A stretch of DNA of 64,000 bases from Antennarius striatus (taxonomy: Eukaryota; Chordata; Actinopteri; Lophiiformes; Antennariidae). Under the pieces are notes generated by a model. It had not been told where the DNA came from. It was given only the letters and a program-made list of their open reading frames with translations, and did no database searches. The stretch is taken from contig NC_090784.1 in assembly GCF_040054535.1 (NCBI RefSeq), positions 15,820,501-15,884,500 on the forward strand. Reading direction: 5' to 3'. Position numbers and translations under genes: made by a program. Numbering within the stretch: position 1 is the first letter of the stretch; every line of letters begins with the position of its first letter. Of this stretch, positions 13,884 through 50,845 are shown piece after piece.

Positions 13884-14007
13884 GATCTTGGGAGTCAAGC
13901 CAGAATGTGACAGTCATGGCGCATCATAGTTTGGATCTGTCCAGCCTTTACAACACTTGTTTCCATAGCAACAGAAATATCACCATATCCGAAAAAGTCC
14001 CATTTCC

Positions 14008-17000
14008 ATGATGCAGTCCTCAAGCTGCTCCACTCGGGCTTCGAAGTCTCGCCACCTTGATGCCAGCAGACGAGGCAATACCTTAGCAGCACCAAAGTCC
14101 AATGGCCCTGGCTTTCACAGGGAGGAAAAAAACAACAACATGATTGCCCCATCATCTCCTCGCCAGGCTACTAAAGGCTCCACTGCACCCGCCAGGAGCA
14201 GAACAGGGACTCAGCCTCGGGCACCAGTGAACCAGTCCAGGTTCAGCTCCCAAAAACAAGTTTCGACCCTTTCCAAATCAACCAAGCCCAAACCAAGGAG
14301 TACTCGTGCATCTGTGGCGACCAAAATTGCTCGTGCAGCGTCTCCTCCTCCTCTACCCTCAGTCCTCCCACTTGACCCTAACTGCAACGAGCCAAGCCTC
14401 CCATGTCTGTGCTGTGATGGCCGCTCCCCACAAGACAACAATAGTATGTTTAACCACAACCACAACAACAACAACACTATCTCCCTCAAACAACAACTGC
14501 TTATACCTCCACCTCCACCACAGTTGCCCCTGAGGCAGGAGAAGAAAGAGGTGGAGTCTAAGCCTCCTTTCCAAGCGCAGGCCCAACTGGAGCATTCTGC
14601 CTGCCCTGCTGCTCGTGCAGAAAATGAAAGCAAGAATGCAGATGGAAGCACCGATCTGGACAACAAGGAAGATATAAAAGGAGAAGAAGTAGAAAGTGGT
14701 GGAGACATTGATGACAATGAAGAGACTGATGATGATGATGAAGATGATGACACCCTGGTTCCCTCCTGTTGTGACTGTCCCCCCTCCCTTCTGGAGTTCT
14801 GGTTGTCGTCTTCAACCTCATCTTCCTCCACATCCATTAGCTCCTGCTCTGATCTGGAATCGGACTGTGCGGATCAATCCACTTCCTTCTGCTCGTCCAA
14901 TGACCAAGATGATCTAGCCATCACTCCATCCCCCCAAAAAGACTCTGCTCCACAAGTCCCTGAGTGCCAGCCTTCTCCTCCACCCCTTAATCTTAGCCGC
15001 AACCCCTTCTCCTTAATATCACATTCCCCAATTCTGCCTTGCTCCCCAGATGAGGGCTATCCCCCTGCCTTGGACTCTCCTTCCCCTGACTACTTAGGCA
15101 TCAAAGGTGATTCAGAGATTAGTAAACTAGGTTTACTTGACTTTCTGGAATCTGTAGGGGAGTTTGGAAAAATGGAGCGCTTCAGCCAAGTGATCCAAGT
15201 GGCTCGTTGGGATTTGGAGGGGGAACAACACTGGGATGTCCTGAGAGATCGGTTGGATCATCTTGATCGCTTGGAGAAGGTGAACAGGGAAATAAAGCTG
15301 GCTTACGTTGCCAGACTCCACGAGAAGGGATTTGATCTGGGAGATCTGGAAGAGCAGGATCTCTCGGACGTCATGGATGAAATGGGCAACATTGAAATTC
15401 CCTGGAAGTTATATAAAAATCATGAAACAGTAATGGGAGTCTCTCAGGAGTTTTCAGATGCAGGCGTTGACCTCACAGCTCCATCAGACTGTGATGAATC
15501 TCTTGTTCCCGATTCCCTAACTCCCTCCCCTGTTGAGCCACCACCTAGACCCCCTAAACCTCCAGCACGTCATGCCAGTGTGAGCTCCGACCTTCACACC
15601 TACATCAATATCAGCAGGGAGACGACCTCAATGGCAGTCTCTACCTCTCCCACATTATCTACTTTTTCCCCTAACTCCTCATCCCCCACATTCACCACCT
15701 TCAGGTGTGAGAAAGCCTTGCCCCCAACTCCACCATCAATTCCTCCTCTCCCCACCTCTAAACCAGTCCCTTACCTCTCTCTGTATACCACTTCTTCTCC
15801 TCCTCCTTCAATCCCTACCCCAACTCCTCCAATTCCTCCACCTCGGAGGCGTCACCTTGCCAAGAAAGAGGCACAGCGACTTGCTGCTCTTCAAGCTGAA
15901 CAGGAAAAGACTCCCCTTTCCCTTCCTCCTCCTACTATGCGTCCCCCACCTTTACCTCCTCCCCCAGTTATCTCAGTCTCTTCCTCATCTCCTCCTGCTG
16001 TACCACCTGCCCTACCACCTCCCCCCTCCTTCCATGCCCTGGATGTAGAGATCCGGAAGCTACTGATGCTTGCTGGACTGACTCAAGCTGAACTTCTTAA
16101 ACTCAGCCCAGAACTTGGTGTTTGTGTTGGAGCTATTGAGGATGAGGGAGCAGTAGATAATGTTACATTGTCTAGATCTGTGGAGCCACTTGAGTTCAGT
16201 TTTAAAGCAAGGGAAGAGGAGACGGAATGTGACACTGCACTGATTCCTAGAGATAGATGGTGCAGAAAAGAGAAATTGGATGGTGATCGAGAATTAGATA
16301 TAGCTGAAGACGGCAAAAAGAGAGAGGAGAGCAAAGACACACAAAGAACCACATCATTCACTGAAATGGCAAAGAGAAGAAAGAGGAACAGTGGTCTGAA
16401 ACCTGAGTCTTATTACAGCACTGGTTCTACCTATATAGATGAAACCAAAACAAAGAACACAAATTATGAGTCTTTCCCATATCCTGTTCAGTTACCTGAG
16501 TCGCCTCCGCCTCCTCCTCCACCCCGGCCATTACCTCCAATCCCTCCATCTTTGCAACACACCAAAAGCAGCACTCTCCCTGCCAACTCTGCACAGCCTG
16601 AGCGATTTGATTGGCTCATAGCTTTTACACCAGATTGTGACGGTCCACCACAGCCTCCACCCTTGGATGTGAGAAAATGCCATATGGATACACAAAAGAA
16701 GATAAGTTCATCAGCATCACCTCCAGGGTTAGCCCCAAGGGTGACAACTTTTAAAGAGCTTCGATTTCGCAACAAGAGCACGTCACCCCCAACAAAAGTA
16801 ATCACAGACCCGGAACCAGATCCAACAGTTATTACTCCAGATCCAGATATATTGTACAACCTGAGGTGGAGAAGACAGAAGGCAGGTGATGATGGAAACC
16901 AATGGGAATACACCTCACAGGCTCAGGCCTTATTCATGCAACCACCACCAGCCCTCACCTCAATGGCTGCTCTGAAGGAAATGCTCCAGAGGGCTGACAT

Positions 17001-20000
17001 GGAGGGTGGGCAACTGGAGCTTTGCCCGTCACAGAAGATTGGCTGTTCAGTCAGTGACAGCAGCCTGTGGACCATGGGCAGGGAGTGGGAGCGTGAAGAC
17101 ATTAAAAGGGAAGAAAATGAAGGAAAAGAAGTGAAAGAGGTAGATGAGGTGGAGGTGAGAGGAAGAGCTGACGGAGGAAGGACGCTTGAATCAAGAACTT
17201 CTGGTGAGTTTCAATTTTCATTTTGATGATAGTTGTAAAGATAGACAAAGCAGAAATTGGGTTATAGTAAATTGTAAGTGGAAGGGATCTGGAAAGGTGT
17301 TTTGTATGACATTTGGAAACACATCGAAACACTATAATTTACACTACTAATCTGGAATAGACAGATATTGGACAAAAACAGATGGGGAACAGCTTTTACC
17401 TGGTCAGTGATGCACACGCAGTATCTATCCTTGAACAGTACAATAAAGAGAGACAAATCCAAGGGAGGGGAAAATATTGACTCATATTTTTACACTGATG
17501 TATGGAAAGACAGTAGAAAGATGGAGGATAGGCATGAGTCACTGAAAAGGATGATACATGATATGATGGATAAATAACGGTAGGTGGTTAGCAGAGGGTG
17601 AGTTCACTGACAGAAAAAGCAAAAAGACAGTGGAAGCTGGTAACACAACACAGGCAACAGTTAGAGAGGAAGAATGCAGACAGTGTAGAGGAAGAAGGTA
17701 ATCTGAGGAGAGTGAAGACATTGGAAAGTTTCCAGACAGTATTTCTTGCAATGCTTTCCAGATTGTGATATCATCATTGGCTTATTTAATTATTCATCCA
17801 CCCTTCAGTCCAAACGGAGGGGGGGAATGGACTGCCCACAGAGCTCACTATGTTCTCTTCCGGCTTTTGCGTTGCGAACTCTCAGCTGGACTGTCTTCAT
17901 TTTTTCTATTTGTGTGTACTAGTGGTGTGGCAATAGCTCAGTCCACTAGGTTTTGGTTTGGGGACTGGAGGATAGCCGGTTCAAGACCAGAGTAGACTAA
18001 AAGTATGGAGTGTGAACTGGTAGCTGGAGAGGTGCCAGTTCACACCCTGAGCACTGCTTGTGTGTGACTACCCTTCATTACAGTATTTAAAAAAAGTTAC
18101 TCCTGTCCTTCTTTCCCTGCCTTATTACTGGTCCTAAATCCCATCAACCTTGGGTTTTCTCTTGCTGCCTCTCTGCTCACCCCACACCCATGCTCCCTAG
18201 AGCTGCACAGATAGCCCAGATCAAGTTACTTATCTCATACTGCGCTTGCATCCAGCAACACAGACATTACTGCTGTCAATTTCTAGTGTGGAAGTTCAAC
18301 TCCAATATTCTCCACCAATGCTCACTAGCTGATAATTTTACAAGGATTTGAACTTCTGTAATTGAACGATCTTGTCTATTTCTATTTTTAGACTTTACCA
18401 TGGATTTGTTAAGTCACATGAATTAAAAATGAGTTGCATGCTGCAGCTATAGCTGACAGGGACACACCAGGAGTGGTGTGTATGCCTTTAAGACTTCAAA
18501 GGGTGGATCTTCGTACGTGAGCCAATAGCTGAGAAGCAGCGTAAAAAACAGGAAGTGCCGTGGGTTTGTTGTGTTGGAAGTCAGCTCAAGTCTTACCAAG
18601 GTAATGTTTCATTCCGGCTAGTTTTGGAAACATAGCCTTACAGTCTGTCATAGTGTAGTGAGAATTGTGTCACCACAGTCTATGAATGTTCACAGAGACA
18701 GACATGATTAAGCATTAAGTCAGCTATTAGCCGGCTGACTCAGCAGTATGCTGTACTACAGGATAGGGGAGGATGGGGTTGTGGGAGCAGAGGCAGAACA
18801 TAAGGCAAAGAGAGAAGGTGATCCATTAGAGACAATGGCAGGAAAGCACTGCAGTAACATATAGAATAAAGACAGACACTCACCGTGCTGACATGTTCAT
18901 AGCTGTCAGTGCAAGTGCAAATGGAAGTGCTATAATACATTTCAGTGAGGATCCCAACATGATTAATGTCTGCAATTGATGATGACTTTTTTTCCTCATG
19001 CTGTCATTGGTGAATTTGTGGCTGATTGACAGAATTCTTACTGGCCACTCTGTCCGTACACCATTTTAAATAAAAGGCTGTGGTTGTTGCTCTTCATGAA
19101 TCTACTCCGTTAACGGTCACGCACTGCCAATATATAATCGTCAATCAACTGTCTGACTTGTTCAAGTGATTTATTTCATGATACTTGATGAGGATTTCTA
19201 CCAGAATACACTCATGAATGTGCATTTTTCTCTCAACAGACACTAACATTTTCTGCATCTTTCTCTCCTTCCCATCTTTTGCCACATTTTTTAAATCCAC
19301 CTTGGGGTTTTTTTTCCTCATCTATCCATCCCATTTGGTTGTTTCCATTGTTTGTACATTTCTCTACTTTGCTCCTTTGAATTTACTTGTGCGCTTGCCT
19401 TACTGTCCCAACACCTGCACCTCACACATTTTGGCCTGTTTTCCTTTTCCAATAAGCAGTTTCCTCTCCCCCACTTTCCCTTGCTCGACTTTCCCAACCC
19501 TACTTCCTGCACAGTGCCCTCCCTTCCCAAGCTACAGGCTGCTGTAACCCCCAGCTCTCTGCAGATGTCAGACCTCACACCCATGTAGGAAGGGAAACCA
19601 CAGATAAAAACTGCAACACACAGCGGGCTCCCTCTACCAGCTCAGGTTTTATCCACAGAGATAATTCCAGCATTGATTTAAATGCCGGGTTTAACTATGA
19701 ATCTCCGGCTGATTTTGTTGGTGACTCTCCTTGCGATAATGGAAATGGCTTAAACACACACAGGGATACAACATCTGAATCTGTCAGCAATTTTGATTCA
19801 CTCTACTGCAGTGGCTCAGAGAAACAGAATGGCGCACAGGCTGAGGCAGACAAGTCTGTTAGTTACACTACAGACATTCCAGGTTGCACCACCCCATACA
19901 AAAACATTGATGTCATGTTGACATATTCCAACACTATGGATTCTTTGTATTCAGAAAAATGCAAGAATTCACACACAGACCTCAACAGCAATAAGGCTAG

Positions 20001-23000
20001 GATGTACAAAGAGCTTCCTCCTCTTCCCACATATTACTTGCACCACCCTAAAAACTGCCCCATACACCGGGGTACCCCTCCTCGCCTCTCCCCAATCGGA
20101 GCCCTCTCCCCTCCCCAGCGTTCTGGAGAGCTCCCTCCAGGTGTAGCACGCTCCGGTCTCAGCTCCCCGCTTTTCCCCCGCTCTCACACATTGCCTGCCC
20201 TAGCTGCTCCCCTTTACTACCCAAACCTCTACCCGCCTATACCCCCCAGGGTTCCCCCCCTACCCCCAAAACTCTACCAGGCTCCTCCGCAGTCACGTGT
20301 TACGAGTAAGAGCTCTCTCTCTCTTCTCTCTCCTTGCATCGTACACTTTCTTTTACTCGACATTTTGCTTGCTTGCATGCATGTCTGTCTGTCAGTCTGT
20401 CTGTCTGTTGTCTGTTGGTCTGTCTGTCTGTTTTTCTATGTGTGTCTCACTGTTCTCTTTCAGTATTTGTTCTCTGCCTATGTGCCCTCAAAGTTCTGGC
20501 CCTCACAGTTCTGCTACATTTTCAACCTGGGCGAATTGCAGATGTGAAAGAACTGGGCAACTACCTGTTCTATCTATCAGAAGGCAGCTTCCTGCAGGTC
20601 ATCTGATATGACTTATCAACAGTGTCCTTTCAAATCTGCAATGAGCCTTCACAAAGTTACCAGCTGTTCCTGTCAGAGGGTGTTACTTTATCTCTCTGTC
20701 TCTTTTCTTTTATCTGTTAGTCTCGTCTGTTTTGTCGACCTGTGGATTTCTGTTTTTGCACGATGTGTTGAAATGGACTCATGCATTTCATGCCAAGCAC
20801 ATCCCAAATAGTGTGATGTTGTAATCTTCAGTATTGTCTTTTTATCTATGTGTGTTTCACCCAACACCTGCCCTTTATACATATATCTATTTAAACTTGT
20901 ATCCGACCTGTCTGATGTAGTAACGCACACAGCAGTTCCCCCCATAGATCAACCCCGTGGATGTGTGTTAAAAATATGTGTGAATGTGTTTGTGTGTTTG
21001 ACAGTGAATAAAGATAATGAATGAGATCTCATTCATCTCTGATGCACGTAGAAAGTTGTCTTCACAAGTACAGATGTTACAAATTCACCAGAGTAAACTA
21101 AATTTTCCAGGTTGTTCTCACACCCTGTTTATTGTCAAGAACACCATCGGCTTTTATCTGCCTACTTCAATGCTTTTCATTGCTTCACTGCTTCTGCTAT
21201 GGATCTTGATATTTTAGTAACAACATTACTCTATGTGATGATTTTTTTATTTTCTGCTGAACCTGAATATATTTTTACATTTTCAATAAATAATCACTCT
21301 TTACTGTGACTGTTAGCTGTTCGGAGTGTGTCATTTGCTGGCTCTGTACCGAAGACGACAACATCCTGGATGGGCGAAGATGTGAAGCATCCAATGAGAG
21401 GTCTGGTCTTGTCTACTCAGTGCCTGCAGGAAAAGAAAGGTGTGCTTCTTACTGATCTGTTTGTGCACTTGCCTTTCTGGGTATATTTGCCCCTATTGTC
21501 TAAGCCTATTCCAGCTTTACCGTAGACCATTGTTCCTCTCTGCAGCTCTGGTCGGTGCAGTCAGTGTGGCAGTAGAAGCCATTGTGGCCCAGTTCAGTTC
21601 TTCTCGAACAGTGGTTCAGAAGGTCAGTCATTGATGGATTTACAGTACAGTTGGGATTTTGACATTGGCATTATGTTGTTTGATTTTCTGTTGAGGAATG
21701 TTTTCTGTCATATCACTCTAGCTCTTGGCTCTTTGTATTGGAAAACTGAATTTTACTGATTTCATTGCTGAACTATGGAAATGCTTTCCCTCCCTTCCTT
21801 CTTGTTCTGACTTTTTGTGTCTTCTTATATCTCTCCTCAGTCTTTCTCAGTTAACAAGGTACTATAGTATCTTTAGATAACCCAATCTTGTCTTATTAAG
21901 AATGTCCAAACTTCTTGCTTCCCCCATGACATTCCTATCAACTCCCATCATCCCATTTTTTCAAATTCCCATTTATGTGTATCATATCTTTTTCTTGAGT
22001 CATCCTTATTTGTCTATTCCCCTGTCTCTCCTTATCACCACATATCTGCTTCCTCTCTCTATCCCATTTTCCTCTCATTTCTTTTCCTGTCCTCCCAGGC
22101 TTTATCAGGAGACAGCACTATAAATCCATCTCTGGGTCGTCTGGTGCTGCAGTGTTTCTGCCCTGCCCTGCATAGTTTGCTGACTGATGGTTTAAAACCT
22201 CACCAGAGTGACTTGATTGCAGGCAGGAGGCCAAACTCTGCCTGGGGCTTAGTCCAGGCCTCCACCAAACCAGGTAATACGCAAAGGATTGTTGGGAAAG
22301 TTGCATTTCTGCGCCATTAATTCCATTTGTATTTTACCATTGATGATAATGATAAACCCCAGACCTAATCTATTTTCCGTTTCCTTACATTTCAGTCAAT
22401 ATTTGCTGATCTTAGTGTCTAAAATGCTGAATATTAAACTACAGCAGCATGCAGATATTGATTAGTGTCTGAGTGCCAAGTTTCATTGCAATTTTTTTGC
22501 TCACTTCTGTAAATTCCTCTGTTGATGTCATTCTCTTCTTCCGGTGGTATTTTTCAAGGTCTAAAAACACAGGCCTTGTTCAATCTTCAAGTTCGAGTTG
22601 GAGAGCTGCCCCAGCTCAGACAGAGCAAACACAGGTTCAATGCATTCCTGCTTGGCCTACTGAAGTAAGCACTGGCTCCCTTCTTAAAGTATAGTAGTTT
22701 AAAAATAGTTGTTATTCAAATCAAATTTTATTCGTATGCCACCAAATCATAACAAAAAAATGCTCTTCTCTGTTTTTTTCTTCTAGTATCAAATTCCTTG
22801 ATGTCTGGCTGTCTCACCTACAGTCTTGCAGCGGTATGTATCATCAGTAGCTCACCTCACTTTCAGTGATGAAAACGTATGTAACTGTGATCTCTCTTCT
22901 CCTCAGATGTGCTGGAAACATATTACCATCCCAACTCCTTCATGCGTTTATCACTGACCACCTGCCAGCCTCTGTTTGAGGAGCTGCTACTCATGTTGCA

Positions 23001-24934
23001 GCCTCTCAGCCTGCTCACATTTAACCTCGACCTGCTCTTCCAGCACCACCATTTAGAGCCACATAATCACAGTCCAGAGATTCCCAGTCCACTTTCTCAA
23101 AATCCTGGGCTTCAGGTCTCAACAGAGAGGCCCCAATCCAAAATCACTGATTGTAGGCATATTGAAAGCCTATCGGGAGTAGAGTTCATAAGCCCAGAAC
23201 ATCAGGTTGCCAAAGAGAAATTGTCACCAATTGCAAATCCAAAGAATGGAGCAGCAGTAGAGTCAACACATCGCTGTGCTGCGCCCTTAAAGGGTTCAGT
23301 TGCTCTCGAGCAGACGAGTCCTCAGCTGCTATGGGTTCAAGAAAAGGAAATTGGAGATTTGCCTCCTCCTAATATTGATGACAGCTATGCCCAGCAAGCA
23401 GGACAGGTGGGCTGCTCATCTTTTTGTGTGTCTGTAAAGTTTTGTGTTAAATTTGTGTGTTCCTGCAGGACTGAATATTTTTATTCACAGGTGATCCAGC
23501 AGGGATGGGGGGCTGTCATCCGCTGGGGAGGCAGACTGGGTCAGAACCTGGTTGACCTAAAAGAGGGGATGAAGACTGATCTGCAGGACCAAGCAGGGAG
23601 TGACTTTGCACCTGTCAGCAATGCTGCTCAGGTGCCCTGGGGCCTGGGGCGGCTCTTTGGAGCTTCTAAAAGCCCCAACAGCCCACCAGGTCACACACCT
23701 CCAACAAGGTTAGCCGATGAATTTTGCACATTTCAACAACAGTGGATTTCAACCCACTTGTCCTGCCTGCTGCTAGTATAAGACAACCTAAAGATTTTGA
23801 TGTACTCGATTGTTTTTTTGAGGAATCATTTGCATGAACAGTGTCTGCCTGTGATAGTTCCCAGCCCAATTATACAATGCTCTCTCTCCCCTGTTTATTC
23901 ACAGGCGTCCCTCTCAGTGGCTGACTCCTGGTGTCACAGCATTGACCCGAATGGTGAGCAGCAACTCCACCCCAATAAGGAGGGCAGCAGAGCCCCAAGG
24001 AGACTCTGAGCCAGATCCAAAGAAAGAGATCAATGTAATGGAGATGAAGGTCAAACCCATGCCACTCAGGTACATAGACCTAATGTGATATACTGTAGGT
24101 TATATGTGCATTGTTGCGGGCCTTTGGTACCACAGAGCACTAACTGAAATTTCAACTTTTGACAAGTTGGCATTTTTTTACAAGTTTCAGACAACTCAAA
24201 AACTTCTTAAAAATGCAGTTTTAAATGTTTTTTTTAAAGATTTTAAATAATTGATTCCTGATATGTCGTGCAATAATAGTCCTGTTTTGATGTGGTGTCA
24301 TGATGATCTAAGATCATAATGTATTGGAGCAACATCAAATTCATTAATTAGATATTTTTTCTAGTTCCTCAAATAAAGTTTGAAAAAATTACACACACTG
24401 TATTCCATTCCACAGCCATCAGGCTTTGGCAATCATAAAATGCAGAATAGTAATAAGGACTGTTAATAAATAATTGAAATGAAAAAAGATAGACATAATG
24501 TAAGCAAATAAGTATTCTAAGATCAAATTTAAGGTTCACTGTAAATGGAATGAATTATTGATTCAGGTTAGTTTAGGTATAACACTTTGGGCCTTTCTGA
24601 ATTTATAAAATATTGATCACCCTAATTGGAAGATCAAAGATTAAAAATAAAATTCTTTCTATAATTTGACAGTCAGATCGTGCTGAACCCTTCGTTATGA
24701 GTCATCCAAGATTTGGTAATGTCACATTTAGGAACTGTGTTTGACGTTTATTTTCCGTCTGTCCTCAGGTCAGTGCGAACACTGTGTGACCACACTGGAG
24801 CAGGTTCAGAGCTCAGCTTCTGCAAAGGGGAGGAACTTGTGGTTCTAGGTGGAGTCGATCAAGACTGGATTCGCTGTCGTCAGGGTGAAAAAGAGGGTCT
24901 GGTACCAATTGGCTACACCTCCTTAATCATGTGA
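14008..24934 (+). CDS. rusc1: RUSC1 (RUN and SH3 domain protein 1, NESCA)
   Basis: RUSC1 is a vesicle-traffic/signalling adaptor (TrkA signalling, AP-4 vesicle transport). Coding exons: 14008-17203 (exon begins 13884), 19565-20305, 21317-21439, 21546-21622, 22099-22273, 22559-22664, 22787-22833, 22907-23406, 23491-23708, 23905-24069 and 24769-24934, in phase to 1837 residues (human about 900). The ATG at 14008 is the first after an in-frame stop at 13966. The long, Pro- and Ser-rich N-terminal exon keeps human landmarks SISSCSDLESD, TTSFTEMAKRRKR, FDWLIAFTPD and VTTFKELR. The RUN domain spans about residues 1355-1570 (GAVSVAVEAI... PALHSLLTDGLKP... LLTFNLDLLFQHHH). The SH3 domain is the last exon (RTLCDHTGAG... 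DQDWIRCR... GLVPIGYTSL). Human short NESCA starts MAEAQSG; the matching spot here has MGEDVK in exon 21317-21439, so a short isoform is plausible. An 18-nt optional exon lies at 21841. Confidence 0.95.
17915..18090 (+). repeat. tRNA-derived SINE
   Basis: The copy has a pol III-type internal promoter. An A-box-like TGGCAATAGCTCAGT sits at about 17928 and a B-box-like GGTTCAAGACC at about 17977. The SINE body follows (agtatggagtgtgaactggt, gtgccagttcacaccctgag), shared with the copies at 11280 and 49010. It has decayed from a tRNA and is not a tRNA gene. Confidence 0.7.
18480..18602 (+). promoter_or_regulatory. Candidate internal promoter and alternative first exon of RUSC1
   Basis: A CCAAT box (gagccaatagctg, about 18519) and an ETS-like site (caggaagtg, about 18548) are followed by about 50 bases ending accaag|gtaatg, a good splice donor at 18600. 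This would give a noncoding first exon for shorter RUSC1 transcripts, which mammals are known to make. No direct evidence of use. Confidence 0.3.
20306..21316 (+). other. RUSC1 intron before the RUN-domain exons
   Basis: About 1 kb without coding features. It carries a short (CTGT)n run at about 20385-20440. Confidence 0.6.
21841..21858 (+). other. Candidate 18-nt in-frame microexon of RUSC1
   Basis: Between exons 21546-21622 (ending VVQK, phase 0) and 22099-22273 (starting ALSGD, phase 0) lies tctttctcagttaacaag. It is preceded by the strong acceptor ctctcctcag and followed by gtacta. It would insert SFSVNK into the RUN domain without changing frame. The human protein has no insert at this point (VQKAQLGD), so skipping must also occur. 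Confidence 0.4.
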
Positions 24935-29643: not shown

Positions 29644-32600
29644 TTATAAATGCTGCAGGGTCAAAAGTAAATCATTCAGCCGTTTCCTCCTCTGTTCTCG
29701 GCTGCAGACCTCGTCTTCCCCTCGTTTTTCTTCCTCTCTGTCCTCCTCCTGTCTGTTTCGGGTTTTGGTGTGCTGTGGTGAACAAGCACGCAGAATTATT
29801 TGCAAAGGCAAACTTTTCTTCTTACGATTTTAGAGATCTTGTTGTGTTTTTAATGTGGCTGCATTTGTTCATTCACACTCACACTAGCAGTGAGCGAACT
29901 GGAGGTGTCCTGATTCTGATGCTGAGGGTCACTGCTGATAACCGTCACCTCCACCCCCACTTGCTGATCTGAGGGTCAGAGAGAATAAACCGTTTTCTGT
30001 ATTCTGTATGTTAATGGAGACATTACAGGAGATAAGGCAAACAGTACTTCATTTATTGTACAGATAAAGTTTATCAGGCTTTATGCTAGTTTTTATTTGC
30101 CCCGATTCCTATCTGCCATCAGTCAGGGAGTCTGATGGAAACTGTGGTTTCACTACTAATGGGGAGAGTTGATGCCAAAAGTGGATGACAGACATGGGGA
30201 AACATTTCTGCAGACTGAAATTCTGTGGTTGGAAAACCACTTAGTTTGTGCTGAGTATGATATGGACAGACAAGCCAAATATGAGGGCAGCAGGCTGTAA
30301 GCTGAGCACACACTAGCACATATACATGCTCACATAAAGTAAAAAAGACACAGAACACCAACGTGAATTCATACAGGTGTAGAGTAAAAAAAAAAGAAGA
30401 CAATGTGGATATGAGTTCAACCACATACACACAAACACCTACAGAAACAAAAACAAACACACACACTTGCTTCATGGACCTGACTTGATGTGGCTGTCGT
30501 CCCCATTGCCTCCATCAAAGGGAAGATGTTGTAAGTCCCTCTCCTCTCCCTCTGCGTCTCTCTCTCTCTCTACCCTCAGTCGTATCTGTCTGTCTCTCAC
30601 AAGCTCCCAGTTTCTCACAAGGAACACATGGTGTTTCACCACAAAGTTCCTGGTCCAGGCACAGGAGGGAGAAACGGAAGCCATCAACAATACTTCAGTT
30701 CAGTGACAATGCACAGAGCAGCTGATCTTCAAATAGTTCTTTCCATACCTCTCACAGCTGGTCAGAGGCTCCATGTCGAGGTGAGGGAACAGACTGGTAA
30801 TGTCACTTGAGCTCTCCTCCTGTGGAAAAGACATACAAAGGAGTGAAATACACATTTCAGCGGTTATAAATGTTGCATTCTTCACTGCTCTGAATTAACC
30901 TGAAGCCGCAAAGACTCACCACTCTCTGGTGAGAAGATAAAGTCCTCTCCTTCAGTCGGCCTGAGTGCAAAGAGAGCAAAAAAAGAAAAAGAGAAAAAGA
31001 GTATAAAAACATTGATTTGATCCATCAACTGAACCTGAAGATAATATACCCAATCCTGACGACTCACAGTAGTGCCGCTTCCTCTTCAAAGGGACGGAAG
31101 GCTGTCTTTGAAGCTGTAGCAACATAATATGACAGTTGTATACCATTTTTACCTCCAAGAATGCTTTTGCTTGACCTTCTAAATTCCTGATTCTGTGTTG
31201 GGGGCTCCTACTGTACCTGATTGTTCTGCCACAGCCACATCACATCATAGGGTAATTGGAAATGAATCCGTTTCAGCCTAAGGTACTTCCCTAGAGAACA
31301 CAAATGATTCTGGATGAAACACCATGATAAACTACATGTACACTGTTTATTACATTCCGCTTCAAAGCGGTTATGTATTGTAATTGTCAGTGTTCGTGTG
31401 GTCGTTCGTCCGTTGGTCCACCAAATATCTTCGCAACCATTGCAGATAGAAAGATGAAACATAAAGCACATTCCTCAGGCGGCAAAGGGGATGAAAATGA
31501 GATGATGACCTTAACCTTCAGAAAACTAGGTCACAGTCAGATTTCAACTTTTGTACACTCAGGAACCGGATAAGATAGAAAGACAAGGGAGGCCAGTGTG
31601 AGTAAGACCATAGATCAAAGCTAGTGCTTTGATAAATGACAGTAGGTCAGAGCACTAGCTTTGATCTTTGTCCTATGCAAGTAGGTCAGGGTAAAATTTT
31701 GAATTTAGGGTTGTCGTGGGATGTTGCAGTCTGTGGCTCCCTTGGTTCTAGTTTTTTATTTGATATACTGACCAACATGTATGGGAGCAGGTAGAATGCC
31801 ATACTGATGCTCCTCTGGTATGTATTCCATACTGTCTCGATACAGCTGCTGAGCTTGTGAGGGGGGACTGAGAAATAAACACGTGAATTAATTTAGAGAA
31901 AAAAAAACTGATGACAAAAATACTTCATAAGAGCTTTTTAAGTATGCAACTCACTCTGTAGTTTTGTAATCATCGGAGTAAAGACCTGCCCTCAGAAAAT
32001 TCTTCCTGGGAGGACCGTACGCCCTCTCCTCTGATTGGATAGTTACTGGTTGGGATGGAGCCTCATCTACGTCGGATTGGCTGAAACGTTCAGGGGGGTC
32101 GTCATACTCGTGTTTATCCTCAGTAACACTAAAAGGAAAACATCAACAGAGAGACAGAACGATAGAGAGGAAAAATAGGAAGAGGGAAAGGGCACTGGTT
32201 TAGCACACAGTGCTGAAAACGATGTGTTAATATAGCAGTGAGTGAGTGGTTGTATTGAATTTTCCACTCAACCAGCTCAGGTGCTTTACAATACTATCTG
32301 ATTGCTTACCTCTGATGACAAGGAGAGTCACCATGTTTTCTTTTCCGCCCTCTCTTTCTCCTGGCTTGCAGCTTCAACTCTGTCACCTGGCCCGCTGCGC
32401 TGCCTCCTCGATCTCTCTCTGACCCTCTTACATCTTTTCTACCCTCAACGTCTCTCCCATCTCTGTTGTGGCCTGGCAAGAGCTCAAGTGATGACAAGGA
32501 GGGAGCTGCTGATGAGTGCAGGGTGGACAATATATCGGAGGGCAGTGGGTGCTTTCTGGGCCGCCCCGGCCCTCTTTTTTTGTGCCCTGCCCCAATGTCT

Positions 32601-33457
32601 GGTATTAGTACACTTTTCTGTATACCCCGGCTTCTCGAGTCACCTTGTAAACCTGCAGTCGTTGAAATAGAAAGAGGGTGGGGGTGTAAGTATGGTAGAG
32701 GAAATGAGACAGATGTGCATCAGCGATTGTGCTGGGAGGAGGTGTGAGGTGAGGGCAGTCTATGCTGACTCATACAGGACCACAGATTAGGTGAGTCACA
32801 ACGTTTTCTCTGACCAGATCACTTCTGGGAAATGCATTAGGAAATGATTTATGTACAAACACTCAGACGGCTTTAAACCACAAGGTCGGTCAAAACAAAG
32901 TGCAGAATGCATACTTTTTAATATGAGTGCAATCTCAAAAGGCTGACCAGATGAAGAGAGAAAGGAAAAAATGTCTCTGTGTGAGCATGGCATGCTGTAC
33001 TTCACAACACGTGTGTTTTAAATTAGATGATGACCTGATGTCAAAAGTATTCCACCTCTTTCTAAAACAAAATTTCTCTTCACACTTGCCCAAAGCCTGA
33101 CCTCTGTGGTAGTCCTTCATCAATCACTACTGAGGTCATCTATCTTTTTGCTAATTTTCCACAGTCTCCGACAAGACTGGCCACTATTTCCAGTCTGGAT
33201 TTTTCCAAGTCAAATAGGCCCTGTTGGCCAGCAGTGAGGAATAGGCCAAGCTTTAAATAGACAATCTGGTGGTTAACTAATGACTGTGTTCAATGAGTAG
33301 CCCCAGCCTGCAACAGCGTGTGGTTCGTCAGTGACGGGAAGATTCAAAGATTTTCTGCAAGATTCCCATCAAGAAGGTGCCGTCATGCTGTGACACTTTC
33401 TTTTCTTTTTTTTTAAACAAAATTCCGACTATGTTGTTGTGTGCGCATGCGATAGTG

Positions 33458-33493
<36 letters not shown>

Positions 33494-36400
33494 GGGGAAC
33501 CAAGCAGAGGGAGTCGGAAATTGACTATAAAAAGAACCGACTCTGATTTCCTCTAAAATAGCCTCTAGGCTTTAATGAGTTGCTCAACACTAAGGAAGCA
33601 ATGCTCAGACTAGATTGAAGAAACCGCTGGAGCCACAGTCTCATGTCAACATTGTGCAAATACAAAAGTCTGTCACTGTGCAAATGATTAGAATCTCTCA
33701 GCAAAATCATTCAACAATCTATCCTGTAAGTTAGACCTATATTGTTACCATATTCTTCATATTCATATTTTCTGCCATTAAAATAGAAACAAAGTACAAA
33801 ATTGAGTTTTTTGTAGCTTTTAGCAGCACAAGCAGTTTACAGACAGAGAAATTCTCCCATTACATTGCAATGTTTGTATTAAGTGGTAATTCTAAAAGAA
33901 CCTTATGCAGAGGCTTCAAACAGAATCACATGCATATCAGTGCTCTACTAATTCATATATTTAAGGGTGCAATAAGACATCCTTACCTGATTCTCTCCTT
34001 TCTGTCCACGCCGGCTCGTCTCTCCTCCATGACCTGTCTCCACTTGCTGGATTCCTACCAACCAATCTGCTTCTCAGACCCCGCCCCCCTGCTGTGAGGG
34101 CAGCGGATGTGAACAGGTTGGTGTGTGTCGGGGACGTTGACGTCCTATATTGTTGTGGCTCTTGAACACCTTCATCATCTTCATCTTCTACATCTGATGC
34201 AGCAAGTCTATCAGTTTGTTGCTCCTCAGTGAAGCCTCTCCAGCTGGGGTTCGACTTTCCAAATCCTGTCCCTCCCAGGCCCCCAAACTTTGTCCATCCC
34301 TGACCCAATCCTCCCCATCCTCCTCCAAATGAAGACAGGTGAGAGGACCCAAGCCCCACTGAAGTGAGAGATGTGCATTTGTACCTTTCTGCTGGAGATG
34401 ACAATGGTGAGGCGGATGTGGCAGAAGACAAGAAGGAATCGTTCCCTTTCTCACGTAACCAAGGAGATTCTTTCGACAACACAGTCCCTATTTCTCTTGC
34501 CCCTTTCCTTCCTCCTTCTCCTTGGGCCATAAGGAACCCAGACCTCGTCTTTGAACTGGTTAACCCCTCTCTCTCCATACCATCTTCCTCCCCATCCTCG
34601 TGTAACTCTTCTTCATCGTCCACATCTTGCTCGCAGTGCCTGTGACGATGTTTATGCTTGTGTTTGTGGTCACTCCTCCCACAGCTGCAGGACAGGTTGG
34701 ATGTGTACCCTGAGCTGAGGTGTGGGCCTCCTCCACTAACACCTACTCCACCTCCTAGATTACCATCAACCTCTCCTCCTAAACTTCCTTCCCTTAACAG
34801 CCTGCTCCTCCGCCTATGGAATCTGGCGGGGTTGAGGAGGAAATGGGCATGATGGGGCTGATGGTGGGAATACTGGTGTGAAGAGGGAAGTGTGTAAGTG
34901 CTGGGGAGGTGATGGTAAAGGGTTGTAGCTGGGGGATAGCTGTTGTAAAAACCTATATTTTCAATGGTCTCCTGAAACTTTGATGAACAACCACACTGCC
35001 TGCGGTCCAGCTTCCTATTACACTGCACCGGCTGGCAGGGGAAGAACGGCTGAGTGTTGAAGGAGGTATTAGTGGAGTAGGATGAAGGGTGAGGTGAGTA
35101 GAATCCATTCAGATTTATTCTGAAGATGTTGGAGCGGGGAGAATGGGAGGACGAGTGAAAACGTTTTCCTCCACCAGCATTTATACTCCCGTCAAAGCCT
35201 TGTCCCACTCCTGTCCTTGTCCAAGCTCGCCGTCCAATATGGACCTCACTGAACTGACCAATCAGATCTTCTATTTCAGCCAGAAACTCTGGATCCTGCA
35301 TATGCAACTGCTGGTGCTTCTTCTTGTGTTTATTTTTCTGTCTTTTAAGTGCATTGTGCCCAAGGCAAGGGTAAAAATCTGAATGGGTGCACTTGTGTCC
35401 TGGGCATGGGCATGGGCACAAGCAAGTGCAGGAGGAGGAACAGTCATAATCCCTCCGTTTGTGTCTGTGTCGGTCTCTGTGACGGTCCACACCTGGGGGG
35501 TTGATGATGGGGTTTGTGTGTCTGGGCATATGAGAGAGGGGTGAAGAGACAGAGGAGGAACGGTCGACAGCACAGGAGGGGATCCTTTGACCCTTCAAAA
35601 TCACTCCTGATCCCTGAACCAACCTGAGTACACCTCGGGCTCCCCGGACCTCCCCTCGCTCACAAACACTGTTGTTATCTGTTCCTATTCCGCTATCACT
35701 AGGCAAAGTCTCTTCACTGTGTGATTCACTCCTAGGGGAGGGGGTGGCCTCCTTTAAGTGGCTAGGGGAGCCAGGTGTGTGGTGAAGAGGAGGGGTCGGA
35801 CAGGACAGCTTACATGAAGACTGGTGAAAGGGAAAGTGATGCCTTCCTTGACATGGACAACTCTTTTTCACAAATGGAGAGAGGGATGAAGAGGAAGAAG
35901 GACGGGGAGAGGTACAGGAGGATGACGGTGAGGGGAGGGAAAAGGGGTGAGGAAAAAGTAAGGAGGATGTTGGTTCTGTGAGGCTACCTTCACTATAAGG
36001 GCTCTGAGCCCCACTTGAGTGGGTGAGAGATGGGGAGGGAAATGGGTGAGAGGGGGGAGGCTGGAGTTGGTTAGAGAACAGAGACGTCTCAGAGAGACTG
36101 GTAAACAGAGACGACTGAGTTGAGTTCTGGGAGTTAGTTTGGATCTTAGAAGTTGTTTGGATTTTAGGCTTGCGTCCTCGCCTCTTGCCCATGTAGATGG
36201 TTCCTCTCTTGCTCACATTAATCTGAGGTCCCAGTTTACTCCCAAAGGAGGAAGACAGGGCTGAGAGCGTGTGTACTGTTGTCGCCCCTATTGATTTACA
36301 CATATTTAGAGAGGTTTCACCATCTTCTGCCTTGCCTCCGCGTCTCTGCATTCCTATATACCCAGAAAACATTACTTTATGAAGTTTTCTCTTCTTCCTT

Positions 36401-39400
36401 TTGTGAATCTCATTAATCACTTTTTTGATCTTTATCTGTCTGTCACCCTGACAATCTTTATTCCTGCCTCTATCATCTGCATGATTCAGTGCATCTCCAC
36501 TCTGGTTTTGGGAATGAGGTCGTTTGGGAGGACGACCTCGCTTCTTGGGACTGGATTTAGATTGAGCAGCACACTGGAATATTGGACTTGGCTCAAGCAC
36601 AGGGGCTTTCTGAATTCTGTCACACCCCAAAAGAGGCACCTCAGTTTGAATACAATTTGGTGAAAGTCTAGGGGGAGGTTCGTTTAAGAGAGAGCTTTGG
36701 GACTTAGGACGGCCGCGTTTTCGAGCAGGGGTTATGGCATATGTGGATGCAGGGGGGCTAGCATTTAATGAAGAATGACTCTGCTGTGGGGATGGAGGTT
36801 TGGTTGCAGGGGAGATAGCAGAAAAGCTGCCAGTTAAGGAGCTAGAGGGAGCATGATGTGACTCATCAGCATGCTGAAAAGTGGCTTTGGCAGGAAAGGG
36901 AGTCTTGGGGTTCAGGGGAAAACTGGTATTATGATGGGAATCTGAAGACACTTCCTGACTTTCTGCCCTCTGAGCCCGGTGCACTAGCTTGGTCCAGCTG
37001 GGCCGCCTGGCTTTACGTTTCTTGAGTGGTCGACTATCCTGCTCCTGGGGGGAACAAGGGGGGGAAACTGATGCACGAGCAGAAGGACTGGGCACAGAGG
37101 GAGGTGTAGAGGAAGAGGTGTGGCTTTGAGGCACAGCTGAATGTTTGGTGACGTCTTGATCTTTTGACTTATTATTTTCACCTGTTGCTGAATCAGCTTG
37201 GTTAACTGGCTTGCAACTGTCATCTACCTTGTTTGTTTCCTCTGATCTGTTTAGAGTTACTATTTTAGAGGACGTATCTATTTTACCAATTTCAATGGTT
37301 TCATCGCATTTTCCATTATTATTCTCAGTTCTTGGTCTGTCTGGGCTAAATTTATCCCTTCTTTTTTCACTCTTTCCTCTTCCTGTCTTTAGATCATCCC
37401 TCCATGCATCATCAGTCAAATGTCTTTCATCCTTTTCTTTACTGTGTCTTGATTTTCCTTCCTTCCCTTTATCCCTTTTCTTCTTCTTGCCCTCCTTGTT
37501 TCTGCTGTCGTTGTTTGCTCCTTCAGACTCGAATCTCTCTCTCTTCAGTTTTCTGTTTTTCAGTTTGTCTTTCTTTATTTTCCTCTCTTTCTCTCTCTTT
37601 ATCTCTGGTGAGGGCTGTGGAGAAGGAATCTGATCTTGGGATTGGGTAGAGGACAGATGCACAGTGGGGGAGGACTGTGGTTTAGAGGTGACTGGGGAAG
37701 CGGAAGGAGAGTCTGGTCTTGTCTTACTGGACTGGCCAAGTTCTTTATGGGAGCTGCTGGAGACTAGAGGTTTTGTTAAGCTCTCAACTGAAGAAACAGA
37801 GGAGGAACTGCTGTGCTTTCCAATTCTGATTTTCGATGAAGTGGAAGTGCCAAGGATGACCACAGAGCCTTTCCCATTCAATTTGCCCTTTTGTTTTTTT
37901 GTCTGTAACGCGTCATTCTGTTTCTTGCAGATCTTTTCCTCATTCCTTGTTTCCGAGGCTTGGATAGTTAAGGTGGAAGGAGTAGTTGTAGCTTTATGAT
38001 TTGCTGTGGGAGAACTGGGTTTGTGTCCTATAGAGACAGACTGGCCATTGACACTGGGGAGCGTGTCTTTCTTCACTCTCTCGGATGAGCCATTGGAATT
38101 CACATTTGTTTTATCAATCACTTTAGTAGGGACCTAGAGGAGGCAAACATAGGATCTCTGTCTTAGATAACATTGGCTGTGACATCCATTTGTTTTCTGT
38201 CAACAACAGGAGAGGACAATAGGAAAGAGACAATAACTGAAATACTTTTGTTTTTGTCCACACATGTAAAGAGGGAGTGAGAACAAAATTACTCAATCAG
38301 GCAGAGAAAGGAGGGCATACGGAGGAGAAAGGGGAGAACAAGGTGATGGAAAAAGACAGAGCAAGGAGAAATACAAAGGCACAGAAACATGGAGGAAGGG
38401 AGTGGAAGAGGGATGGTGGGGGAGTGAAAGATAAATGAGAGCAGGTAGAAAAGAGGGGATGTAAAAATAGAAGAGAGGGGCAGATATAGAGATCTAGGCA
38501 GAGACAGAAGAGAGAGAGAAAGCTGTGCTATTGGTAGCTATTAATTGCCACAAATACAGATGAGAAGGCTTGACATTTTGTACTTGTCCTGTAATTTTGG
38601 TATGCTGCAGATTAAGTGGCGTGTGCACAGCAAAAGCAATAAGCTTCCCCTTGGGCAATTGTCATAGGGACTGATTGACCAATGTCTGTAATACCTCCAA
38701 GTGGTTGCTGTGCTGTTGTCCTATTAATAGGCCTGTTTATTGAAATGGGCTTCTAAGGTTTCATTATTGAGACAATAGCTCATTTGACCTTATTACAACT
38801 GAGCACAGAGCAAAGCATTTTTGCTCTCATTTTGTCTCTCTGGACATTTAGTGCAAGAACCAAAGCTGAGCCACAGCACATCCAGTGCATACCATTCATG
38901 AATACCTTTAGCCACTGTAACCTTGGGGCTGCTTTACCACTTTAGGCTAACTGAGACCAATGGCAGGTTTATCATTAGCATGTCATTTGAGTCTTTATGT
39001 GTGTGAGGTATGATTCCCCTTTCCTTAACTTACCTGTTTTGCAGACTTGATCCCTTGGCAGGTTATGGCAGAGACTGAGACTTGGGTCGATTCTATTGTA
39101 AATGCTGACGTTAACGACACCGGCTGTGATGACAAAGACGATGTTGGCGATGATTTCAATGATGCAATTGGTGGTGGTGGAGCAGCAGATGCAGTTTGTT
39201 TGGAAGTGGTCTGGACAGGAGCCAAGTGGTTTGGAGAGGATGCGATTTTGCCAACTCCTGCTTCTCCATCGCCCCTCAGAAGCACCCCCCTGCCTTGCCT
39301 CTGATATGTCCTGATTGTGGGCTTGCAAACATAGCTCTCCAAGATCTTAGGTGGTTTCTTGGTGCGTTTGGCCTGTAGTCCAATCCGGAGTCGTACATTC

Positions 39401-39681
39401 CCCTCAGGGCAGCTCGTCTCTCTGCCAGAGATCTGAAGCTGTTGCTGTCCTGTGTTTCCACACCGCCCCTCGATCAGCAACTCCAGCACTGCCCCCTTGT
39501 CTCCATCTCTCTTTCTCCCTGTACCCCTTTTCTCCTCCTCTTTTCCCCTTGCATCTCCATTTTCCCCCTCCTCTCTCCACTTCTCTGCCACTTGGTCCAG
39601 TTCAGAGTCTTCGGGCACAGAGGCAGTGTCCAGAGTGGAGTTTGTGTTTTGAGGGGTTCCCCCCTTTACTCTCTGGTCCAT
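29644..39681 (-). CDS. ASH1L-family protein lacking SET, bromodomain, PHD and BAH regions
   Basis: Twelve coding exons (minus order): 39681-39034, 38133-33987, 32652-32310, 32128-31955, 31867-31773, 31290-31217, 31113-31068, 30960-30920, 30819-30749, 30649-30480, 29968-29883 and 29772-29644. All join in phase: 2007 residues, against nearly 3000 for human ASH1L. Shared blocks include [19 protein letters not shown](P/Q)QINVSK, GTIY(M/I)[60 protein letters not shown] and HFQLPYD. At least four AT-hooks (GRP/GRKP cores) are kept. After the FQLP exon the chain goes straight to KRKRHYC...[18 protein letters not shown] and DDSHIKSD, then to a tail [13 protein letters not shown] like the ASH1L C terminus. 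ASH1L methylates H3K36 through SET, activated by MRG15. This protein could bind DNA and MRG15 but not methylate; that is inference. Donor GTCCAT at 30479 is weak. Confidence 0.85.
31349..31750 (+). repeat. Dispersed repeat family, copy C
   Basis: This is the fullest copy. It opens with the hairpin tacattCCGCTTcaAAGCGGttatgta and ends gggatgttgcagtctgtggctcccttggttcta. It shares blocks with copies A (8762) and B (9774). It sits in an intron of the ASH1L-like gene, ending about 20 bp from the donor of exon 31773-31867. Confidence 0.75.
33460..33492. repeat. (GT)n microsatellite
   Basis: Sixteen uninterrupted GT units in the intron after the giant exon of the ASH1L-like gene. Confidence 0.95.
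38134..39033 (-). other. Intron 1 (coding) of the ASH1L-like gene
   Basis: A 900-bp purine-rich (on +) intron. Its flanking exons join in phase 0 (KQ|VPTK). No other feature is seen. Confidence 0.7.
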
Positions 39682-49162: not shown

Positions 49163-50845
49163 TGACAAATGACAACATAATAAGAGTGGAAAAATAATTT
49201 CTGCTACGAGGGATCAATAAAGTTCGATTCTTCTTCTACTGTCATCAGTATTCCAATGGTTTTTCCTTTTCCATAGGGAATCACTCGTTTTAAGAGCAGC
49301 ACCGATGTGGTCGGGGCGGTGATGAAGGAGCTGAGGTTGCAAAGTGGGCAACCAGGTTCCGAGTTCCGTCTTGCTTTGGCTGTGGATGGTGTCAATGCAC
49401 TGTGGGGAAGATCCACCATCCAGAAACTGGACAAGAGCCCTGTGAGGAGACATGTTCACAATGCCGTCACATCTCTAATTTGTCATCATACCTTTGGTAC
49501 AGAAAGGAGGTCTTACGCTTTTCTATTTCTCACTGCCCACCAGATGGATCCAGAGGAGCTCTCTTTGGTTCATAATCTGAGGAAGCTGATAACAGACACC
49601 TGGGTAATCAGAACAGACTAAAAATTAGAATGACATCATCATGAGAAAATGTCAGATTCTTCCATTAACGTTACCCACTTTCAATCAGACCGGAGGCGCC
49701 ATCATCACTACTCTGTCTCAGACAGGGTCTGTCTACACTTCAAAATTTGACTACTTGCCTCAAGAGCTGCTGGGAGAGGTCAGAGGTCTTTTTGTTGTAC
49801 TTTTTAATCTGTAGCACTTGCCTATCCTGCTCTGACTGCAGACTAAAGTTGTGAACCTGGCTTTGAGACTGCAGATTTCTGATTCTGAGGACTTGTGGCC
49901 AGAGGCTGTACGCATGTAGTATTCTTTATTATACCGAAAATATGTGTAAAAAAAACTCTAATCGGATTAAACTACTTAGAATTAAATCAAGTGACAATGT
50001 AGAACGTTGATTCTTCGTTTCTACTTTGTGATGGGGAACAGTTTTTGTTCCCACTGAGTCACCAGGTACCCACCACACCCAGTAGCCAGTGTACAAATAA
50101 CAACATTTCAAAGGACTCCCATCCCTGAATATGTCACTGTCCTGTCTTCTTGGTTCATTCATCATTGTGTTATTGCAGTAAGATGTAGCATTGAGAGTTA
50201 GTTCTCCTGTTCACCTGATGTCATGTGATAAAAGTCGTAAGGAGCCAATTTATTGTTATTGTCTCTCACCTCCTCCATATGTGCCCTACAGCATATGAAC
50301 CTTAAAGCCCAACAGTGGGGCATTTAATTAAAGTTGATTTCAAAGTTGATTTCAAACCGTTTTCCATACAGACCTCATTTAGTCATTTTTTAAGTTTACA
50401 CACCTTTAAAAAAATTATAATATTACATTTATCTTTGTTACACCAGTGCATCAGATTAATTTATTGCATTTAGTTTTTGATCTGAACATGCCACATCAAT
50501 GGGTTATTTCTGTCTTAAGTATGCCTCTGTCATTATTTCTGTCATCAGACGGGCTTTGACAACATGGACCCATTCATCCCAGTGTTGGTGCCCAACTATA
50601 GTCAGAAAGAGTTTGAGAGTTGTCACCTCTACTACATGGACCGCAAGTGGCTGCAGCATCCACAGAGTAAGTGATGATACTGCAGATTCTTTGTTTTATT
50701 AAAAAAAAATATTTAAATGATGCTCTTTTAGTGACTTGGGATCTTTCCTTTTTCATCAGGTCGAACAGAAGAAGGAAAGAAAGAACTCGTCTTTTTGAGC
50801 AGCAGAAATGCGTCAGCCTTTGACAGACTTTGTGCGTTCCTTTGA
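46015..50845 (+). CDS. dap3: DAP3 / mitochondrial small ribosomal subunit protein mS29
   Basis: DAP3 (mS29) is a GTP-binding protein of the mitochondrial ribosomal small subunit, also linked to apoptosis. Coding exons: 46015-46053, 46493-46576, 46701-46802, 46939-47047, 47173-47265, 47370-47500, 48241-48321, 49277-49441, 49544-49603, 49689-49778, 50549-50666 and 50760-50845, in phase to 385 residues (human 398). The N terminus ([13 protein letters not shown]...) is Arg-rich without acidic residues, a mitochondrial targeting signal. The P-loop GPKGSGKT is in exon 47173-47265. The Walker B-like [14 protein letters not shown] and the LSQTGS segment are conserved. C-terminal blocks [12 protein letters not shown] and EEGKKELLFLS match human. 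The last residues (FDRLCAFL) replace human LLERHCAYL. Confidence 0.97.
47090..47120. repeat. (CA)n microsatellite
   Basis: About fifteen CA units in a short DAP3 intron, ending about 50 bp before the P-loop exon. Confidence 0.95.
47530..47870. mobile_element. Candidate MITE (short DNA transposon) in a DAP3 intron
   Basis: The ends are imperfect inverted repeats: tacaataatccctcgct at the left, and at the right a sequence whose complement is tacagtaattcctcgttac. The 340-bp body has no coding capacity and is more CpG-rich than its surroundings. No clear target-site duplication was seen, so the family is left open. Confidence 0.5.
49010..49245 (+). repeat. SINE copy with an embedded (CA)n tract
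   Basis: The SINE core cctgagcactgctgaggtgtccttgagca and the LINE2-type tail gagggatcaataaagttcga with (TTC) repeats flank a (CA)n microsatellite. It belongs to the family of 11280 and 17915. Confidence 0.65.
49096..49159. repeat. (CA)n microsatellite
   Basis: About 32 uninterrupted CA units inside the SINE copy. Confidence 0.97.

Follow-up and report, generated by a model that had tools for sequence, protein, structure and literature searches.

An ash1l duplicate without a methyltransferase domain retains an MRG15-docking segment in its sequence

A 64-kb window of this 548-Mb genome of 42 contigs (the window being the whole stretch of DNA analysed, G000:C9:15820501-15884500) contains an ASH1L-family duplicate that has no methyltransferase domain and reads as an intact gene. 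At the level of sequence, the segment that docks MRG15 is retained in this gene, referred to below as the C9 gene after its contig. A complete, enzyme-bearing ash1l is present on contig C14. We lean towards the view that the C9 gene is a retained duplicate whose product would now serve as a non-catalytic, DNA-bound adaptor or competitor for MRG15.

Structure of the C9 gene

The gene runs along the minus strand from 39681 to 29644 and was modelled with 12 coding exons (6024 nt, 2007 residues, one terminal stop). All 11 introns are of the GT-AG type with matching phases, and the 64-kb window holds no N. Its features, in window coordinates, are as follows.

39034-39681, minus strand: first coding exon (MDQRVKGG...); contains the N-terminal ASH1L box and is followed by a GT donor
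33987-38133, minus strand: long exon of 4147 nt, with conserved blocks and three of the five AT-hook-like motifs
32310-32652, minus strand: exon with an AT-hook-like motif, from comparison with the C14 exon and the splice model
31955-32128, minus strand: homologous to C14 exon B, with identity at 24 of 54 aligned residues (0 of 2000 shuffles equal)
31773-31867, minus strand: homologous to C14 exon C, with identity at 18 of 29 aligned residues (0 of 2000 shuffles equal)
31217-31290, minus strand: FQLP exon (exon D), with the MRG15-docking segment (17 of 24 residues identical to C14)
31068-31113, minus strand: probable pre-AWS exon (C14 exon E), from its 46 nt, phase and a targeted alignment
30961-31067, minus strand: intron of 107 bp, the probable place of the C14 AWS exon, SET exons and most of the post-SET exon
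30920-30960, minus strand: exon, tentatively what is left of the 3' end of the post-SET exon (C14 RLKEKRKSKHQLKKR)
30749-30819, minus strand: short exon before K, with C14 counterpart EEESSDSNKFYPHLMKPMSNRE (by eye; 0 of 2000 shuffles equal)
30480-30649, minus strand: homolog of C14 exon K (...HIKS), with 12 of the first 15 columns identical and 12 of the remaining 40
29883-29968, minus strand: exon of 86 nt matching no C14 exon, from splice sites and phase
29644-29772, minus strand: last coding exon, with the stop and a C-terminal motif similar to C14 REAQRERLNKILLDLLH

The gene has the features of the ASH1L family: the N-terminal box, the long disordered exon with AT-hook-like motifs (five in the gene by a simple pattern match), the FQLP exon and the exon order. 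The exons at 31290-31217, 31113-31068, 30960-30920 and 30819-30749 lie exactly where the initial annotation had placed them, with an intron of 103 bp after the FQLP exon as it had stated, and the phase agreement it described extends to frames and splice sites across all 12 exons. The 4.1-kb N-terminal exon, said there to be fully open, has no stop in its own frame, whereas the remaining frames of 38133-33987 have 52, 101, 54, 60 and 53.

A dispersed repeat occupies 31331-31570, within the intron that precedes the FQLP exon. It resembles stretches at C3:23075021-23075186 and C3:23100843-23101002 and, via these, at window 8783-8904.

The complete copy on C14 and the exons missing from C9

By tblastn, the first C9 exon matched C14:1830399-1830545 (63% identity) and C3:23121324-23121193 (51%). 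With the long exon as query, a protein search returned, besides the exon itself, two rows at C14:1833358-1836588 and two at C3:23104114-23104653. On C14 the exons follow in the order FQLP, pre-AWS, AWS, SET (three exons), post-SET, K (NFVLKH...), L, bromodomain, PHD, BAH and last. When these were joined from FQLP as far as the beginning of the last exon, SET, BAH, AWS, bromodomain and PHD all exceeded their Pfam cut-offs. The initial annotation had proposed a search of the genome for a second ash1l with SET, and this complete gene on C14 answers it.

We searched the genome with the C14 region from FQLP to exon L, obtaining 60 rows at E up to 10; the best candidates were scored (58 of 58), and N stretches of the genome lie outside the reach of this search. 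All rows of at least 68% identity fell at C14:1839621-1844495, and other SET rows, at no more than 65%, lay elsewhere. Two rows fell in the window, one on the FQLP exon and one on exon K, and an additional exon-K row on C17 (E 3.55) is at chance level. A second set of ASH1L-type SET exons was not found outside C14 in this search. It should also be noted that four SET-domain matches share an identical score of 41.6 bits (C3:28780939, C5:26502234, C8:23267992 and C18:12469941); a SET gene that spread or was retro-duplicated recently may account for them.

Comparison of the C14 exons with the window by tblastn separated two groups. Exons A, B, C, D and K matched with E from 4e-9 to 5e-12, whereas the AWS, SET, exon-L, bromodomain, PHD and BAH exons gave no row below E 0.099 anywhere in the 64 kb. 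A Pfam scan of the last 205 residues, from the FQLP exon onward, found no family at E up to 1. The same scan of the long exon and of the reading frame around the first exon found no family; two of the three exons in between gave none and the other a chance row (E 0.19), with nothing over cut-off. Thus, the AWS-SET-post-SET array of the ASH1L methyltransferase is missing from the C9 gene, save perhaps for a vestige of the post-SET exon, and the absence first proposed from the letters of the window is borne out by both methods. Bromodomain, PHD finger and BAH, also found together in ASH1L, are missing as well. The original account of what was lost was therefore right for SET and overlooked the loss of these three domains.

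The exon directly after the FQLP exon decides where the first gap lies. Exon 31113-31068 and the C14 pre-AWS exon E (LYKRPDVPLYKKIRS) are both 46 nt long, both run from phase 0 to 1 (the C14 phase was read by eye) and both directly follow the FQLP exon. In a targeted alignment of the two, the score was 33 and the best shuffle reached 32 (0 of 2000 as good). An untargeted tblastn with the short C14 exon misses this site, its best row (E 1.7) lying elsewhere. On the short targeted alignment, length, phase and place, the C9 exon is probably exon E. A post-SET origin was considered for it and rejected on the same four properties, so the initial description of this KRKRHY exon as a post-SET tail was probably wrong in detail. 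If the exon is E, then the missing AWS, SET and most of post-SET map to the 107-bp intron at 31067-30961, one intron further on than the 103-bp intron in which the loss had been placed. The next exon, 30960-30920, resembles the post-SET exon at 2 of 2000 shuffles equal and at a tblastn E of 0.18.

The second gap lies between 30480 and 29772; exon L and the exons for bromodomain, PHD and BAH are not there, and a single 86-nt exon stands in their place. Beyond it, the C-terminal motif matches the C14 C-terminus better than any of 5000 shuffles (49, compared with a best of 48; 0 of 2000 in a repeat). The match is weaker when the whole last exons are aligned (9 of 2000 shuffles equal), as an acidic stretch is aligned instead. 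We also tried the motif as a remnant of exon L and rejected it, with 931 of 2000 shuffles equal.

Because exons survive between both gaps, two separate losses are the simplest reading, and the domains were probably removed by two internal deletions. A very improbable alternative is that the assembly dropped the SET and reader exons at this locus. Raw reads could still reveal such exons, but the error would have to occur twice, each time leaving a proper in-frame intron, in a window with no N and in a genome where the search found no second ASH1L-type SET exon set.

Origin of the copies and signs of selection

Upstream of the C9 and C14 copies alike, and in the same relative orientation, lies a RING-finger gene, the one neighbour seen to be shared. 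From this gene, the two copies are most likely duplicates of one ancestral locus, and, as judged from the one shared neighbour, their split may date to the fish-specific genome duplication. Other domain matches around the C9 gene are listed in window coordinates.

21877-22317: RUN match (24.5 bits, cut-off 22)
22891-23778: RUN match just below the cut-off (21.9 bits)
24701-24931: SH3 match
49277-49618: DAP3 match

The RUN-SH3 gene at 13969-24931 is convergent with the ash1l duplicate and, up to E 0.01, its long exon matched nothing in the genome but itself. We take this neighbour to be of the RUSC type. Human ASH1L lies near RUSC1 and DAP3, and the C9 neighbours with RUN, SH3 and DAP3 matches resemble its surroundings.

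Divergence between C9 and C14 was compared codon by codon, a comparison that covers the whole time since duplication, including the time before SET was lost. Exons B, C, D, E and K together yield pS 0.654 and pN 0.303 (174 aligned codons). Exons C and D together give pN 0.20 and pS 0.71, and the FQLP exon gives pN 0.126 and pS 0.829, the least amino-acid change of the five tail exons compared, with synonymous sites saturated. In the long exon, 446 of 1170 aligned codons are identical (pS 0.81, pN 0.44).

It is unlikely that the C9 gene was recently silenced, with SET lost late and the remainder decaying without selection. In favour of such decay, the second half of exon K, which adjoins the lost reader domains, is eroded relative to its first part (12/40 and 12/15 identical, respectively). 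Against it, the 6024-nt model contains none of the marks of a pseudogene that were looked for (stops, frameshifts or broken splice sites). Neutral evolution of the coding sequence was simulated in 400 runs per level, with substitutions as the only changes modelled and indels left aside. At 0.02 substitutions per site the mean was 4.7 stops and 1.25% of runs were stop-free; at 0.01, 9% were. The simulation caps any neutral period at about 0.01-0.02 substitutions per site. Together with the open frame, it means that either SET was lost very recently or the frame was kept by selection afterwards.

The erosion of exon K suggests, short of proof, that the loss of SET is not recent. It fits an old loss with local relaxation, or the beginning of decay. 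There were probably two separate losses that kept the frame, and the exons between the gaps are intact, which suggests a gene that is stable without SET. The claim of the initial annotation that this is a maintained protein is thus supported without being proven, by the open frame, the splice sites and the codon pattern of this one genome.

A third ASH1L-like gene lies on the minus strand of C3, from about 23121627 to 23098365. It has an exon with the N-terminal ASH1L box, open stretches of 690 and 375 residues, AT-hook motifs and a further motif-bearing exon that runs into a stop. The model is incomplete, with 5000 bases of N between the first and second coding stretches, and no in-phase join of these two was found by eye. 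The counterpart of the long exon of the other copies seems to be split by introns here. No FQLP or SET exon is recognisable downstream, and the genome search likewise yielded no FQLP-exon row at this locus. When the C14 exons beyond A were run by tblastn against 80 kb of C3, they gave only weak rows (E 0.001 for exon K, 0.006 for the last exon and 0.012 for post-SET), and these were rejected as real exons, being of low complexity or having internal stops. A search for RUSC relatives near this copy placed the closest RUN-domain match of C3 some 0.69 Mb from it.

The C3 gene bears on another explanation for the C9 gene, in which selection acts on the N-terminal DNA-binding part alone and the FQLP tail is a passenger. 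In its favour, the C3 gene shows N-terminal parts, and neither an FQLP nor a SET exon is recognisable after them. On C9, however, the FQLP exon shows the least amino-acid change among the tail exons at saturated synonymous sites, and we consider a passenger tail improbable. It is possible, if tentative, that the family as a whole has split into the C14 enzyme and two non-catalytic scaffolds, one on C9 with AT-hook-like motifs and MRG15 docking and one on C3 with the N-terminal AT-hook part.

MRG15 docking, proposed role and known systems

In Ash1 and ASH1L, MRG15 binds a single FxLP motif, located some 40 residues ahead of AWS, and raises H3K36 dimethylation about 30-fold for the fly enzyme and sevenfold for the human enzyme, as reported in PMC5963871. 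The MRG-binding signature is given in PMC8701324 as FxLP(x)2-3-hydrophobic. The C9 gene has this motif together with the flanking ASH1L-type segment: 25 of 34 residues are identical to the ASH1L chain of PDB 6INE, the ASH1L chain of 6ago was also matched, and the hydrophobic residue after FQLP is kept, as V for I. MRG-domain matches are present in the genome on C1, C4 and C24 (5 rows). The segment was also scanned against viral contigs, with no match.

Two structural models for the activation of ASH1L, one involving P2064 and P2067 and the other H2193 and Y2207, are described in a review (PMC8106495). Exon 31113-31068 has prolines at both positions corresponding to human P2064 and P2067, as placed by counting from Ile2051 on the 6INE letters and extending along C14 exon E; by this count two residues lie between P and Ile2051, compared with three in PMC8701324. 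H2193 and Y2207, the residues of the second model, fall outside exon E, which counts against the proposed role.

We propose that one ancestral ash1l was duplicated and that the C14 copy stayed a methyltransferase. The C9 copy would have lost all folded catalytic and reader domains, probably through two internal deletions, while keeping both ends, the AT-hook-like DNA-binding motifs and the MRG15-docking segment. If the gene is expressed, the AT-hook-like motifs may anchor its product on DNA, and the FQLP segment and the following P-x-x-P may grip the MRG domain of MRG15. The protein could then bring MRG15 to chromatin without H3K36 methylation, draw MRG15 away from the C14 enzyme with a possible effect on H3K36me2, or both. 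As its predicted product could hold DNA and MRG15 but could not methylate, the gene is best read as encoding an adaptor or competitor, and it may be a natural version of ASH1L stripped to its scaffold.

Whether recruitment or withholding would dominate bears on a narrower account, in which the main role is to keep MRG15 from the C14 enzyme, as a negative regulator, rather than to recruit it to chromatin. This fits the docking segment, which of the five tail exons compared has been preserved best (pN 0.126) although the domain activated in ASH1L is gone, and MRG15 binding is what activates ASH1L according to PMC5963871 and PMC8106495. A simple decoy would nevertheless have no need of the long N-terminal part, the AT-hook-like motifs and the blocks shared with C14, all of which are kept, and we regard this account as rather doubtful. 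The broader adaptor-or-competitor reading would accommodate either role. If it is true, a duplicated enzyme gene has become a possible regulator of the other copy, and the C9 paralogue would let enzymatic and scaffold roles be separated in a vertebrate.

No description of a SET-less ASH1L paralogue was found in open-access titles and the starts of abstracts, a scope outside which most subscription papers fall; within it, the initial remark that none was known still stands. One ash1l row, on chromosome 19, appears in a zebrafish SET survey (PMC2200798), and one ash1l is named in a Nile tilapia bromodomain survey (PMC9454494). Gene surveys by SET or bromodomain would miss a gene of the C9 type. 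Should the three-way split of the family be true, it would be a natural separation of enzyme and scaffold roles that is invisible to such domain-based surveys.

How much of ASH1 action runs through H3K36 methylation and how much through a scaffold is unsettled. Flies with SET-deleted ASH1 reach adulthood, as reported in PMC8426247, so SET-independent functions of ASH1 are real. In the same report, disrupting the fly AT hooks together with BAH is lethal, and the AT hooks act together with BAH in mitotic binding. BAH, their partner there, is absent from the C9 gene, which counts against the scaffold reading.

Compared with ASH1L/Ash1, the H3K36 methyltransferase of the trithorax group, the C9 gene shares the N-terminal box, AT-hook-like motifs, FQLP segment, exon order and C-terminal motif, but is without AWS, SET, bromodomain, PHD and BAH. 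The engineered SET-deleted Drosophila ASH1 is also comparable, as its AT hooks contribute to chromatin binding (PMC8426247) and the C9 gene has AT-hook-like motifs; the C9 gene differs in being natural and in also lacking BAH, PHD and bromodomain. A further likeness is with PALB2, MRGBP, Pf1 and MSL1, which are not known to carry a methyltransferase. These proteins have the FxLP(x)2-3-hydrophobic motif (PMC8701324) in common with the C9 protein, which, in contrast to them, is derived from an enzyme that MRG15 activates.
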